Source: Candidatus Kuenenia stuttgartensis
GTDB lineage: Bacteria > Planctomycetota > Planctomycetia > Pirellulales > UBA1268
Assembly: GCA_945897435.1 (NCBI GenBank)
Contig: CAMDFJ010000012.1
Coordinates: forward strand, 1 to 38,048
Length of the DNA stretch: 38,048 nt
Direction of reading: 5' to 3'
Shown here: piece after piece, positions 623 through 8,629 of the stretch
Layout: each line of letters starts with the position of its first letter
Position numbering within the stretch: the first letter of the stretch is position 1
The notes under the pieces: model-generated
Told to the model about the DNA's origin: nothing
The model's database searches: none
Seen by the model: the letters and a program-made list of their open reading frames with translations, nothing else
Position numbers and translations under genes: made by a program

Positions 623-1534
623 TCAGGCAGACATCTTGATTCCCAGCTGCCTGCAGACGGTTTCCGTGACCACCCTGACGAGGGCCTCCTGATCGAGCCC
701 GGTCCCGGCTGCGGGGCTCGTCGAGGCGGCGGGGACGGCCATCGGCGGCGGGGCGTCGAAGGCCTTGCGGTCGACCCCCGTCGTGCTCCAACTGGCCCGA
801 AACACGTCGTTGGCGCAGATGTCGCAGTTCTCGATTCCCTTTTCGAGCCGCGGGTCGCTGTAGCCCCACTTCTGCTTGAGTTCGAGCAGTTCCTGCGTCT
901 CCTGCTTGGACAGGAAGGTGACCCGGCCGAGGTCCTTGGCGAGCATCAGAATCCGGCAGTAGGCGTCGAGGATCTCGGTCCACCAGTAGGCCTTCTCGAC
1001 CGTTTCGCCGAAGCTTACGGTGCCGTGATTGGCGAGGATCACGACGTTCGACTGCTTGACGAACGGCTTGACGGTGTCGGCGAACTTCTGGCCGCCGGGG
1101 GTCTCGTAGCGGGTGATCGGCACGTCGCCGAGAAACACCTCGACCTCCGGGAGCACGCACTGCGGGATCGGCTCGCGGGCCACGGCGAAGGCTGTGGCGT
1201 GGGGCGGGTGGCAGTGGACGACCGAATTGATGTCGGGCCGTTCCTTCATGATCGTGAGGTGGAGCAGGATCTCGCTCGACCGCTTGCGGTTGCCGCCGAT
1301 CTGGTTCCCCTCCATGTCGACGATGCAAAGGTCGGAGGGCTTCATGAAGCCCTTGGAGATCATCGTCGGGGTGCAGAGAACCTCGTTGGGGCCGAGGCGA
1401 AACGAGATGTTGCCGTCGTTGCCGGCGGCGAAGCCCTTGTTGTAGATCCGGCGGCCGATGTCGCAGATCTCTTCCTTGAGCTGGTTGAGTGGCTTGTTCG
1501 CGGTGGTCATCTTTCCTGCCTGGATGGGTGCCAT
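623..1534 (-). CDS. Class II sugar-phosphate aldolase (L-fuculose/rhamnulose-phosphate aldolase type), BMC-associated
   Basis: Metal-site motifs HCHPPHATAFA and ILANHGTVSFG; C-terminal extension ending LDQEALVRVVTETVCRQLGIKMSA resembles an encapsulation peptide. Alternative start at 1510 (MTTANK). Confidence 0.9.
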   Translation of the reverse strand: MAPIQAGKMTTANKPLNQLKEEICDIGRRIYNKGFAAGNDGNISFRLGPNEVLCTPTMISKGFMKPSDLCIVDMEGNQIGGNRKRSSEILLHLTIMKERPDINSVVHCHPPHATAFAVAREPIPQCVLPEVEVFLGDVPITRYETPGGQKFADTVKPFVKQSNVVILANHGTVSFGETVEKAYWWTEILDAYCRILMLAKDLGRVTFLSKQETQELLELKQKWGYSDPRLEKGIENCDICANDVFRASWSTTGVDRKAFDAPPPMAVPAASTSPAAGTGLDQEALVRVVTETVCRQLGIKMSA

Positions 1535-1965: not shown

Positions 1966-2751
1966 TCAGTGGCTGTGGCCCTGGCAGCCGCAGGGGGTCG
2001 GTGCGGAGTCGAGTTCGGCCGGCACGCTGCCGGTGTTCCGCTTCGCAAACTCGACGGCCAGCCGTTCGAGGCTCACGGCCGAGAAATCCCTGGGGTCGAT
2101 CGCGACGACATTCGCTGCGCAGGCGTCGATGGCGGCCATGACGGTCGTGGTATCGCGGCCCGTGATCGCCCGCAGACTCGGCTGCCGGTTGGCGAGGATC
2201 ACGGCCGCGGCGGGCCGGATCGTGAGCAGCAGGCAGCGGGCGCCGTCGCGGGGCACGTGGGTTGCAAAGGCGTCGATCGCGGCCCCGAGGCCGGCCGCGG
2301 GAAGCTGCTGGGTTCCGGGCACGGCCCGGGGGATTCCAGCGGCCCGGCCGGCGAGGTCGGAGGGGCAGTCGGCCCGGGCGATGACGAGCGGCCGGGCCGC
2401 CGCCGATCCATTTGCAACGGTCGCCCGCAGAATCTCGATCCCGGCATCGACTGCAAACTCCCTGGCCGAGGGCGTGATCACGGCCGCGGCCGGCACCGTC
2501 AGACGGCGTGTGCCAGGGCTGAGTCGCTCGAGCAAGGCGAGCGTGATCACCCGATCCGTGATCACCGGGCCGTCGTTTCCGGAAGACTGGGCCGCGGCCG
2601 CCTGGGAAGAGGTGACCTGGCCGGCAACCTGAGTCGGAGCCCTGGCAGCCGGGCTGCCGGCAGCGGAAGCCACCTGCCCGGACTGAATCCGGGCGAGCAC
2701 CTCGGCCACGATGCTGCGGACGATGTCTGGGCTGATGGGGGCGGAGGCCAT
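1966..2751 (-). CDS. BMC-associated accessory protein of unknown function (EutT-like N-terminal segment, weak RpiB-like C-terminal segment)
   Basis: N-terminal helix ISPDIVRSIVAEVLARIQSG (encapsulation-peptide-like), VITDRVITLALLERL...LTVPAAAVITPSAREFAVDAGIEI, later AAVILANRQPSLRAITGRDTTTVMAAIDACAANVVAIDP, tail PCGCQGHSH. Sits between two BMC-P genes. Confidence 0.7.
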   Translation of the reverse strand: MASAPISPDIVRSIVAEVLARIQSGQVASAAGSPAARAPTQVAGQVTSSQAAAAQSSGNDGPVITDRVITLALLERLSPGTRRLTVPAAAVITPSAREFAVDAGIEILRATVANGSAAARPLVIARADCPSDLAGRAAGIPRAVPGTQQLPAAGLGAAIDAFATHVPRDGARCLLLTIRPAAAVILANRQPSLRAITGRDTTTVMAAIDACAANVVAIDPRDFSAVSLERLAVEFAKRNTGSVPAELDSAPTPCGCQGHSH

Positions 2752-4583: not shown

Positions 4584-4892
4584 TTACTTCCTGTTGAAGA
4601 CTTCCTGGCCTTCGATCCGGACGGTGTCGACGAGCCCGATGACGACGGCGTCGATCGGGAGGGTCTTGGTTTCGGGGGTCAGCCGGGCGCTCGAGCCCTG
4701 GGTGACGAGGACGAACTGCCCTTCGCCGGCGCCGAGGGTGTCGACGGCGATGAAGGTGCGGCCTGTCGAGACGAGCCTGTCCCGCGACTTCTCGTCGAGC
4801 CGGTAGGGTTCGACGACGAGCAGTTTGTGGCCGGTCATCGACTCGGTCTTCTGCGTGGCCACCACGGATCCGGTCACCAGTGCGACGAACAT
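4584..4892 (-). CDS. BMC-P shell vertex protein (EutN/CcmL family)
   Basis: MFVALVTGSVVATQKTESMTGHKLLVVEPYRLD...TLGAGEGQFVLVTQGSSAR...IDAVVIGLVDTVRIEG; start overlaps the acetate kinase stop by one base (TGATG). The longer 4584..5618 ORF is antisense-derived upstream of this ATG. Confidence 0.92.
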   Translation of the reverse strand: MFVALVTGSVVATQKTESMTGHKLLVVEPYRLDEKSRDRLVSTGRTFIAVDTLGAGEGQFVLVTQGSSARLTPETKTLPIDAVVIGLVDTVRIEGQEVFNRK

Positions 4893-6151
4893 CAGCCAGC
4901 GCTCCTCTCTGGGGTTCCGCCCGCGAGCAGGTCGCGGGCCTGCCGGGCCACGATCAGTTCCTCGTTTGTCGGAATGACCCAGACGGCGACCTTCGCCGAG
5001 GGGCTTCCGATCGACCGCTCCGCCGATCCCTTGGCCGCGTTGGCCATGGGGTCGATCGCGATCCCGAGATCCTCCAATCCGGCGAGCACCGCGGCCCGGG
5101 TCAGCGGCGAGTTCTCGCCGATGCCCCCCGCGAAGCCGATGCAGTCGAGCCCGCCAAGTTCCACGATCCCGGCTCCGAGCCAGTGGCGAATCGAGGCCAC
5201 GTAGACATCGATCGCCGTCCGGGCCCGCGGATTGCCGGCGGCGGCCGCCTCCTCGAGGTCCCGCATGTCGCCCGACGTTCCCGACATTCCCGCCAGCCCG
5301 CTGCCGCTGGAAAGCTCGGCCAGCAGCTCCTCGAAACCCTTCCCCGTCGCCTTCGCCACGTGGACGAGGGCGAACGGATCGAAGTCGCCGGCCCGGTTGT
5401 TCTGGGGCAGGCCCGACTGCGGGCTCATCCCCATCGACGTTCCCACGCTCCTTCCGTCCCTGATCCAGCAGACGCTGCTCGATCCGCCGAGGTGGCAGGA
5501 GATCGCCCGAAGCGGTCTCTGCTGACGCATCGGCACGAGCGTTGCCAGCCGTTCCGAGACGAAGCGGTGACTCGCCCCGTGGAAGCCCCAGCGGCGCACG
5601 AGATGTCGCCCGGCCCATTCGGTCGGAACGGCATAGAGGGCGTTGCGGTCCGGGATCGTGGCATGGAATCCCGTCTCGAACGCCGCCACCAGCGGAACCC
5701 GTGGCAGCCTCTCCCCCAGCAGCCGCATCGCCCGCACGTAGGGCGGGTTGTGGGCCGGTGCCACGAGTGACATCTCCTCCATCGCCGCGAGCACGTCGGC
5801 CGTGACCCGGACGACCCCGCTCACGCGGCCGCCATGCACCGCCTTGAATCCCACCGCCGCCACCTCGTCGATGCTCTCGAGGGGTCCGTCGGCGCCCGTC
5901 AACTGATCGACCGCGGCCTGCAGGGCGACGGCGTGATCGGGCACGGGCATGACGGTCTCGATCGAACGGCCTACGGTCGTGGCCCCGGGAGCGGCTGGCA
6001 ACGACGCGTAGACCCGGCTCTCGGCCGCGCCGACCCGTTCGACACCACCCTTGGCGAGTTCCAGGCCCCCCTCCGCGCCGGCCGTTTCCGGCAGGTCGAA
6101 GAGACGGTACTTGAAACTCGTCGATCCGAGATTGGCTACGAGGACTTTCAT
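4892..6151 (-). CDS. ackA: Acetate/propionate kinase
   Basis: MKVLVANLGSTSFKYRLFDLPE, AVHGGRVSGVVRVT, HNPPYVRAMRLL, RRWGFHGASHRFVS, LGGSSSVCWIRDGRSVGTSMGMSPQSGLPQNNRAGDFDP, GGIGENSPLTRAAV motifs of the acetokinase family. Confidence 0.93.
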   Translation of the reverse strand: MKVLVANLGSTSFKYRLFDLPETAGAEGGLELAKGGVERVGAAESRVYASLPAAPGATTVGRSIETVMPVPDHAVALQAAVDQLTGADGPLESIDEVAAVGFKAVHGGRVSGVVRVTADVLAAMEEMSLVAPAHNPPYVRAMRLLGERLPRVPLVAAFETGFHATIPDRNALYAVPTEWAGRHLVRRWGFHGASHRFVSERLATLVPMRQQRPLRAISCHLGGSSSVCWIRDGRSVGTSMGMSPQSGLPQNNRAGDFDPFALVHVAKATGKGFEELLAELSSGSGLAGMSGTSGDMRDLEEAAAAGNPRARTAIDVYVASIRHWLGAGIVELGGLDCIGFAGGIGENSPLTRAAVLAGLEDLGIAIDPMANAAKGSAERSIGSPSAKVAVWVIPTNEELIVARQARDLLAGGTPERSAG

Positions 6152-6179: not shown

Positions 6180-6449
6180 TCAGCTGAAAAACGCGGCCAC
6201 GAGGCTGTCGGCAGGACGGGGGATCACGTGGCTGGCCACGAGTTCGCCGACCTGCTGTGCCGCCGTCGCACCAGCCTCGACTGCCGCCCGCACGCTGCCG
6301 ACGTCGCCCTGGACGACGGTCGCCACGTAGGCATTGCCGATGCTGATCCGCTTCAGAATCTTCACGTTGGCCGCCTTGGCCATCGCATCCGTCGCCTCGA
6401 CGAGGCCGACGAGTCCCTTGGTCTCGAGCAATCCGATCGCAGTGTTCAT
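6180..6449 (-). CDS. BMC-H shell hexamer protein
   Basis: MNTAIGLLETKGLVGLVEATDAMAKAANVKILKRISIGNAYVATVVQGDVGSVRAAVEAGATAAQQVGELVASHVIPRP: canonical Pfam00936-type BMC domain; ATG at 6449. Confidence 0.95.
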   Translation of the reverse strand: MNTAIGLLETKGLVGLVEATDAMAKAANVKILKRISIGNAYVATVVQGDVGSVRAAVEAGATAAQQVGELVASHVIPRPADSLVAAFFS

Positions 6450-6542: not shown

Positions 6543-7022
6543 TCAGACATTGGCGGGCAGCACGATCCCGATGTCCTCGTGAGGACGGGCGATCACCTGC
6601 ACGCTGACGACATCGCCGATCCGGCCGCCGGCCGCCGCACCCGCGTCGGTCGCCGCCTTCACCGCGGCAACGTCACCCGAGACGAACGCCGTCACGAGTC
6701 CGCTGCCGATCTTGTCCCAACCGATGAAGGTGACGTTTGCCGCCTTCATCATCGCGTCCACCGCCTCGACGAGGGTGACGAATCCCTTCACCTCGATCAT
6801 GCCGAGGGCTTCGACGTTTTTCGCCATCTGTTGCTTCGCTCCTGTGTCAAACAACCAACCATTCCTGGCGGGGCCATCCCCGCCGACCGCACCGGCGCGC
6901 GCCGGAGAGACGGTCTTGTTTCGTGACTGCGATTTCCTCGATGCAGCTTTTTCCGGAGCGGTCTTTTGGGCCGCCTTTTTTCTGGCCGCTGATTTTTTTG
7001 CGGCTGGTTTCTTCGCCATCAC
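6543..7022 (-). CDS. BMC-H shell hexamer protein with optional Lys/Ala-rich N-terminal extension
   Basis: Core MAKNVEALGMIEVKGFVTLVEAVDAMMKAANVTFIGWDKIGSGLVTAFVSGDVAAVKAATDAGAAAGGRIGDVVSVQVIARPHEDI. In-frame upstream region MMAKKPAAKKSAARKKAAQKTAPEKAASRKSQSRNK... Core start at about 6827; extended start at about 7019-7022; both have SD-like GGAG upstream. Confidence 0.92.
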   Translation of the reverse strand: MMAKKPAAKKSAARKKAAQKTAPEKAASRKSQSRNKTVSPARAGAVGGDGPARNGWLFDTGAKQQMAKNVEALGMIEVKGFVTLVEAVDAMMKAANVTFIGWDKIGSGLVTAFVSGDVAAVKAATDAGAAAGGRIGDVVSVQVIARPHEDIGIVLPANV

Positions 7023-7050
7023 TGGTGTCTCCGGCAGCCGCCGGGCCGTC

Positions 7051-7803
7051 CTAGGTCTGCCTCACGAGTTCCACGCCCTCGGCGTGGTCGAGATCGGCCG
7101 CATTCCCCTCGTCGGTGTCGATGTGGACCTCGAGTTTGCTCGTGGCATCGGCCCGCACGAGCAGGTCGCGAAGCACGAGGCCGCAGCTCCCCTTGATGAC
7201 GAGGCTCATCCGGTCGCCATCGCGGACGCCGAAGTGGGCCGCGTCGGCATGGTTCATGTGAACGTGCCGCTCGGCGCGGATCACGCCCTCGCCGAGCTCG
7301 ACGGCACCCGCCGGGCCGACGAGGACGCAGCCGGGGGTGCCGGCGATCTTGCCGCTGGCCCGAACCGGCAGGTCGATGCCGAGCGAGATGCCGTCTGTGA
7401 AGGCGAGTTCCACCTGGGAGGCCTTGCGGGTCGGCCCGAGCACCCGAACCGTGGGCAGCATCTTCCGCTTCGGCCCGACCACCATCACGGTCTCCTCGGC
7501 GGCGTAGAAGCCGTCCTGATAGAGATCCTTCATCGGGGTCAGCCTGCGGCCGGGGCCGAACAGCTTCTCGACGTGCTCGTCGGTAAGGTGGCAGTGGCGG
7601 GCCGAGATGCTGACGACCAGCTTGGGCTCGACGCCACGCAGAGATTCTCCGTTCCGTCCGGCGGCTGCCGCCTGCGACGGCGGGATGCCCCGGGAGCGGA
7701 GGACGATCTCGCGGACGATCCGCTCGACGCCGGAGCGGTCGAGGCCGGGTATCGCATGTCCGGGAATCGCAAACTGCGGAGAAGGAAGTGTGGCTGTGGT
7801 CAT
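7051..7803 (-). CDS. pduL: PduL-type phosphate propanoyl/acyltransferase (phosphotransacylase)
   Basis: [75 protein letters not shown]: duplicated His-rich PduL motifs; N-terminal encapsulation-like helix [22 protein letters not shown] at 7803. Confidence 0.93.
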
Positions 7804-7843: not shown

Positions 7844-8629
7844 TCATGAAACCGCTGCCGGGATGCTGGGTGTCTCGGCAATCACGAGGTCGGCGTCGGC
7901 CGAGCGGATCGTCTCCCGCCAATCCGCCGAGAGTCCGTCGTCGGAAACGAAAAGATCGATGGCATCGAGTGCCGAGACGAAGGTCAGGCTCTTGTGGCCA
8001 AACTTGGAACTGTCGGCCACGACGATCACCCGGCCGGCCGCCTTGAGCATCGCCTGCTCGGTCTCGGCGAGCAGCAGATGGGCGTTGAACAGCCCCTCGG
8101 CCGTGATCCCCGCTGCGGAGAGGACTGTCGTGGTGACATGCAGCCGGCCGAGCAGTTCGTTGGCATAGGGGCCGAGGCAGACACCGGTCCGCGGTGAGAC
8201 ATAGCCGCCGAGGAGCACGACATCGGTGCGGGCCGCCGACGCAAAAAGATTGGCGACGGGCAGGCTGTTGGTGACGATCTGCAGCGAGCGGCCGACGAGC
8301 AGGCGGGCGACTTCGTAGGTGGTCGTGCCACCGTCGAGGAGCACCGTTTCGCCGTCGTGGATCACCGCCGCGGCCCTGGCCGCAATGGCCCGCTTGGCCG
8401 CCCAGTTGGTCGGCTGCCGCTCGTCAAACTCCGGAAGCCTGGGGATGCCGCCGGAATAGAGGACTCCGCCGTGGGTTCGTCGGGCCGAGCCGTGCTCTTC
8501 GAGGGCGTCGAGATCCCGGCGGACCGTCGATTCAGAGACGCCCAGTTCCCGTACGAGTTCGTCGATCGCGGCAAAGCCGCGGATGCGGATCATGTCGAGG
8601 AGTCGGCTTCGCCGTTCGTGGTTTTGCAC
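7844..8629 (-). CDS. DeoR-family transcriptional regulator
   Basis: GTG start; [58 protein letters not shown] (DeoR HTH) plus DeoRC sensor domain ([34 protein letters not shown]). Confidence 0.95.

Follow-up and report, generated by a model that had tools for sequence, protein, structure and literature searches.

Introduction

CcmM58 and CcmM35 are long and short microcompartment proteins that arise from one gene by internal initiation, and PduB is a trimeric (BMC-T) shell protein. In the Pdu microcompartment, PduB and PduB' are made from one gene with two starts, the long form carrying an extra 37-aa N-terminal peptide that links the shell to the enzyme core (PMC9132943). EutK and PduK are hexameric (BMC-H) proteins whose distribution in the cell is affected by an extension (PMC12487888, PMC9132943); the tail of EutK is positively charged, affects compartment positioning and, as its authors suggest, might bind nucleotides (PMC12487888). 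The placement of metabolosomes in the cell is still largely open (PMC8262871).

Here, we describe bmcH1, a BMC-H gene that, like PduB/PduB', appears to give a long and a short shell form by two starts, and that differs from it in encoding a BMC-H protein with a basic tail and in having two RNA hairpins between the starts. As bmcH1 encodes a single BMC domain rather than the tandem domains of a BMC-T protein, it is not a PduB. It also differs from CcmM, which is not a BMC-domain shell tile and has no basic tail. The likeness to EutK and PduK lies in a BMC-H protein with an extension, which in EutK, as in bmcH1, is positively charged; their extensions, however, are C-terminal and encoded by separate genes, whereas that of bmcH1 is N-terminal, predicted to be disordered, and present only in one candidate isoform of an otherwise plain shell gene. 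No folded basic domain of the EutK kind follows the BMC domain of bmcH1. Shell proteins with two starts (PduB/PduB') and a shell protein whose tail is positively charged (EutK) have been described before; the bmcH1 combination and its RNA element appear new as far as could be checked, and a literature search confined largely to freely accessible papers found no description of a lysine-rich BMC-H extension.

bmcH1 belongs to a PVM-type microcompartment locus

The stretch of DNA analyzed here (the window; 38,048 nucleotides) is an entire contig of a 3.0-Mb planctomycete metagenome-assembled genome. It encodes the class II aldolase (PF00596), aldehyde dehydrogenase, PduL, acetate kinase and DeoR regulator of the gene set that defines PVM-type loci (PMC4207490), along with three BMC-P (EutN/CcmL) and two BMC-H proteins. 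The locus is a PVM-type (fucose/rhamnose) microcompartment locus and bmcH1 is its BMC-H1 gene, lying between pduL and a second hexamer gene:

623..1534, minus strand: class II aldolase, the PVM signature enzyme
4892..6151, minus strand: acetate kinase of the PVM locus
6180..6449, minus strand: BMC-H2, the second hexamer gene, without a tail (inferred start MNTAIGLL)
7051..7803, minus strand: pduL, phosphate propanoyltransferase, upstream neighbour of bmcH1 (PF06130 and NF011652 above cutoff; inferred start MTTATLP)
7844..8629, minus strand: DeoR-family regulator of the locus

A 261-aa protein without a Pfam or NCBIfam match is encoded at 1966-2751 (minus strand), flanked by two of the BMC-P genes. 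For the PVM microcompartment of Planctomycetes and Verrucomicrobia more widely, neither a tailed BMC-H1 nor the leader hairpin was found in the relatives inspected outside the family of the source genome.

The bmcH1 frame has two candidate starts

A sequence-only reading of the window had drawn attention to positions 6543-7022, coordinates that are right, and had omitted the strand; the frame lies on the minus strand. Its features are:

6543..7019, minus strand: BMC-H1 long frame, candidate cationic-tailed isoform (158 aa from ATG 7019-7017)
6543..6827, minus strand: candidate BMC-H1 short isoform, a canonical shell hexamer subunit, MAKNVEAL... (from the internal ATG 6827-6825)
7029..7032, minus strand: GGAG, putative Shine-Dalgarno of the long form, assigned from the sequence
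6839..6843, minus strand: AGGAG, Shine-Dalgarno of the internal short-form start, conserved in relatives

The long frame reads (V)MAKKPAAKKSAARKKAAQKTAPEKAASRKSQSRNKTVSPARAGAVGGDGPARNGWLFDTGAKQQ-MAKNVEALGMIEVKG..., where the bracketed residue reflects an alternative start, GTG 7022-7020, directly preceding ATG 7019-7017; the latter is most likely the start of the long form. The 64 residues between this ATG and the internal one agree with the extension of about 65 aa reported in that reading, as do the GGAG at 7032-7029 and the AGGAG at 6843-6839 with the GGAG it had noted before both starts. The extension contains 11 lysines and 5 arginines in 64 residues (net charge +13), and its K/A-rich low complexity resembles histone H1 in composition only. 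No homolog of the tail was detected elsewhere in the genome at E<0.1, and none of significance on plasmids. Residues 72-147 of the long frame match the Pfam BMC domain (PF00936, E=2.4e-25) and the protein has PduA/EutM-like PDB matches, as expected of a BMC-H shell protein. AlphaFold2 predicts a disordered tail (pLDDT <50, residues 5-66) and a BMC fold for the rest. Slippage might occur at runs of A7 and A6 within the first part of the extension (about 6970-6995, minus strand), and assembly errors are possible there as well.

Both starts are conserved among tailed relatives

A BMC-H match was obtained in 53 of 72 genomes of the family, one of which (G064) matched through the second hexamer gene only, leaving 52 with bmcH1; 50 of these were inspected. 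An in-frame K/R-rich extension with an M[ATS][KR][KRQ]-like start is present in 31 of the 50, at a net charge of only +5 in some. The long start of these 31 is always ATG or GTG. In groups g4 and g6 and in parts of g10 it shares nucleotides with the stop codon of pduL (ATGA/GTGA or TGATG), a usual sign of a coupled cistron; the upstream Shine-Dalgarno is weak in some lineages. Across the 1646 codons of these 31 extensions there is no in-frame stop, against 34 and 21 in the other two frames, counts that are supportive only, as related sequences are not independent.

Nearly every sequence, tailed or tailless, retains the internal ATG and its AGGAG-type site, usually 11 nt apart, although the linker around this start drifts. 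This bears on the proposal that only the long form matters, all BMC-H1 in tailed species being tailed and the internal start a relic. An in-frame fusion that stays open in 31 genomes would fit that proposal; yet it leaves the conservation of the internal ATG and AGGAG in tailed as in tailless relatives, while the linker drifts, without a reason, and six tails per hexamer would place an extreme charge load on the shell, so that we regard it as hardly probable at all.

The middle of the extension is conserved as two RNA hairpins

The best-conserved part of the tail appeared to be VxPARAGA(V/I)xGxGPA. Our analysis showed that this stretch coincides with two hairpins:

6885..6915, minus strand: RNA hairpin 1 (6-bp outer stem, 3-nt 5' bulge, 6-bp inner stem, 4-nt loop with consensus GCGU), encoding TVSPARAGAV in the long frame
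6867..6884, minus strand: RNA hairpin 2, GGCGGGG-ATGG-CCCCGCC (a comparable hairpin, variable in sequence, in 49 of 49 family members examined)

Tailless relatives keep the DNA of hairpin 1 without the reading frame and with paired changes, as in GGCCGT-CTT-GCCGGC-GCGT-GCCGGC-ACGGCC, GATCGT-TTA-GTTGGC-ATGT-GCCAAC-GCGATC and GGCTGT-GTT-GTCGGC-ACGT-GCCGAC-GCAGCC. In 33 sequences, 98.0% of the pair cells of hairpin 1 are standard pairs and 27 cells are doubly changed versus a mean of 6.0 after shuffling (0 of 500 shuffles as high); the double changes fall in 7 of the 12 pairs, and slid controls collapse. RNAalifold recovered the hairpin unprompted from a 57-column alignment of 20 sequences. Since the minimum free energy of the leader in the single window sequence is not unusual against shuffles (z -1.15), the case for RNA rests on covariation and not on energy. 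On this basis hairpin 1 is very likely an RNA structure.

We rejected PARAGAVGGDGPA as a conserved protein motif, because it is retained, with compensatory changes, where it is out of frame or follows a stop. It offers a clear case of protein-like conservation that is RNA conservation laid over a coding frame.

A covariance model of hairpin 1 gave one strong match in the source genome (E 7e-7; the next at E 0.27), and a repeated genome-wide element was rejected on this ground. Matches were obtained in 51 of the 72 family genomes, at the expected pduL-bmcH1 junction in all 51 (51 of the 52 genomes with bmcH1), five of them with weak extra matches (E 0.002-0.01). None was found at E<=0.001, under stricter filters, in about 231 genomes of the order's other families. 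The RNA element is family-specific and may control shell stoichiometry. A known Rfam family found no support (no match above the gathering score; the best, M23, reached 25.2 bits against a cutoff of 41.2), nor did an intrinsic terminator, as no GC hairpin followed by a U run was found on the minus strand at these hairpins. ANTAR sites follow a hexaloop pattern, which the 4-nt loops do not fit, and an ANTAR-type site was likewise without support. In genus g8 only (L024, L112 and others), a third GC-rich hairpin of the CTCCGGGC-nnnnn-GCCCGGA type lies between hairpin 2 and the internal Shine-Dalgarno.

The near-palindromic core of hairpin 1, CCGGCGCGCGCCGG, and the DeoR gene in the locus raise an alternative in which hairpin 1 acts at the DNA level, as a palindromic operator bound by this DeoR protein or another regulator. 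Pairing at the RNA level agrees instead with the bulge, which is always 3 nt long and on one side, with the tolerance of G-U pairs and with changes in one arm that are compensated in the other. No promoter match was found near the site, which is located between two genes, and hairpin 1 occurs about once per genome; we consider an operator very improbable and retain the RNA hairpin.

The cationic head is under protein-level selection

Each extension was divided into a head (before the hairpins), the hairpins and a linker. In the window, the head is:

6916..7019, minus strand: cationic head MAKKPAAKKSAARKKAAQKTAPEKAASRKSQSRN, the segment for which pN/pS in relatives indicates protein-level selection

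With a first, protein-guided alignment, pN/pS of the head was 0.33 in g8, 0.43 in g6, 0.58 in g10a+g12 and 0.49 in g10b, and the two shifted frames gave 0.95-1.5 in most groups (0.64 and 8.4 in g10b). To avoid the bias of a protein-guided alignment, the analysis was repeated on nucleotide alignments with 500 column permutations, giving 0.42 in g8 (P <0.002), 0.52 in g6 (P 0.036), 0.32 in g10a+g12 (P <0.002), 0.48 in g10c (P 0.028) and 0.58 in g10b (P 0.10), with permuted means of 0.86-1.19. The hairpin and linker segments showed no significant signal in the same permutation test. The protein constraint is limited to approximately the first 10-37 residues of the extension, and what follows the hairpins is a near-neutral linker together with the ribosome site of the short form.

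By comparison among relatives, we show that the head is under protein selection and that both starts are conserved, as in dual-start shell proteins of the PduB/PduB' kind. Selection on both starts is our main argument for two isoforms, and we judge it likely that the head is translated and that the gene has a dual start. The sequence-only reading had anticipated a plain and a cationic-tailed isoform from one gene, which the conserved starts and the selected head support at the level of sequence. Its histone-like tail survives as a K/R-rich head that is probably translated, not as one conserved tail, the middle VSPARAGAVGGDGPA being conserved through the two RNA hairpins. Its view that the frame is no chance ORF agrees with a stop-free frame in 31 genomes and a codon-structured head; its argument from AAA codons is weak alone, because relatives encode the same lysines mostly as AAG.

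Two other accounts of the frame have to be weighed against these results. In a GC-rich genome the long frame might be open by chance across a structured leader RNA; only the short BMC-H would then be made, and the apparent peptide conservation would mirror that of the RNA. This holds for the PARAGAVGG part, where hairpin 1 covaries and persists in tailless lineages, and it is in keeping with the near-neutral linker and with 19 of 50 relatives lacking a tail. For the frame as a whole it is quite improbable: several groups show codon-phase constraint in the head, a segment not covered by the hairpins, its start codons swap only between ATG and GTG, overlaps with the pduL stop recur, and in-frame stops are absent from all 1646 codons.

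Alternatively, the head could be a translated leader (an upstream ORF) whose translation controls initiation at the downstream start, either through coupling or by melting the hairpins, in which case the fused protein would be incidental. In several lineages the head does overlap the pduL stop, it precedes the hairpins and the internal Shine-Dalgarno, and the linker is unconstrained as protein. A leader peptide would normally stop, however, and here 31 genomes keep the frame uninterrupted into BMC-H. Its richness in K and R is conserved as well. In g10b, where the reading frame through the hairpin has changed, the change has been compensated and the head is still in frame with BMC-H. A leader of this kind is unlikely in our view.

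Proposed function of the tailed isoform

As a whole, the best explanation, which we regard as moderately probable, is a dual-start shell gene with a hairpin pair between its starts and an outward basic tail. Ribosomes that finish pduL, or that bind the weak upstream site, would start at the head and yield a minor BMC-H form with a disordered, strongly basic N-terminal tail, and ribosomes that bind the conserved AGGAG would start at the internal ATG and yield abundant plain BMC-H. The hairpin pair would be older than the tail, and its most likely role is to adjust how strongly the major shell protein is expressed compared with the enzyme gene upstream, whether by intercistronic processing, stabilisation or translation control; in the tailed clade it would also be read through as a linker.

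In PduA-type hexamers of recombinant BMCs the N-terminus is on the concave side, which faces the cytoplasm, and for native BMCs there is dispute over which face carries it (PMC6109187). If the BMC-H N-terminus of bmcH1 is likewise on the concave side, by analogy with PduA, the tail would point outward. The basic tails would then lie outside the organelle, most likely touching nucleoid DNA, RNA or another acidic partner, and such contacts would help to place or spread compartments. We infer, then, that both isoforms are made, that the short form is the major one, and that the tail points outward and has a partner; tentatively, we suggest the possibility that a minority of tiles carry such a basic tail on their outer side and reach nucleoid DNA, RNA or some other acidic partner with it. 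It is the charge of the tail, and nothing else, that suggests nucleic-acid binding. With tailless sister species serving as natural controls, a shell tile whose basic tail is optional opens the placement question to experiment.

Gain and loss of the tail

Stops, deletion of the head or a frameshift leave 19 of the 50 relatives without a usable tail. The sequence-only reading would have taken such orthologs as refuting the tail; they point to a tail that is dispensable rather than unreal, because they trace to lineages that branch outside the tailed clade, to a single nested clade of loss and to one frameshift. The tail is not essential for the organelle. In a gene tree of pduL and bmcH1, all tailed sequences except the one of g4 fall in one clade of 37 (support 0.97). 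This clade includes a nested group of six tailless sequences (support 0.90), which a single loss of the tail could explain; the deeper placement of g4 is weak (0.52). The frameshifted sequence (L022, from G039) is nested in the clade of 37 too, and has its K/R head in the +1 frame relative to BMC-H through one frameshift, either a recent decay or a sequencing error.

The hairpins span the whole family and the tail only part of it. In the simplest account, an old structured pduL-bmcH1 leader would have turned into coding sequence once an in-frame, K/R-rich head arose where pduL ends, and the head would later have been lost in one subclade. It is conceivable, if rather unlikely, that leader RNA captured in this way became an optional basic tail that tethers the shell directly to the nucleoid or to its own RNA, a means of positioning that would do without separate McdA/McdB-type proteins, the same hairpins setting the ratio of tailed to plain forms.

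The pduL-bmcH1 pair of the window stands apart in the tree from its same-genus sisters G057, G058 and G060, which cluster with g3 and G037 in a tailless clade, a position that reflects either weak resolution or gene transfer. Dispersed imperfect repeats of the GACAGGCTTCAGCCTGTC type and of the CAGGTTGCCAACCTGTGC type are inserted between pduL and the hairpin or head in several relatives (L130, L023, L122; L012, L013).
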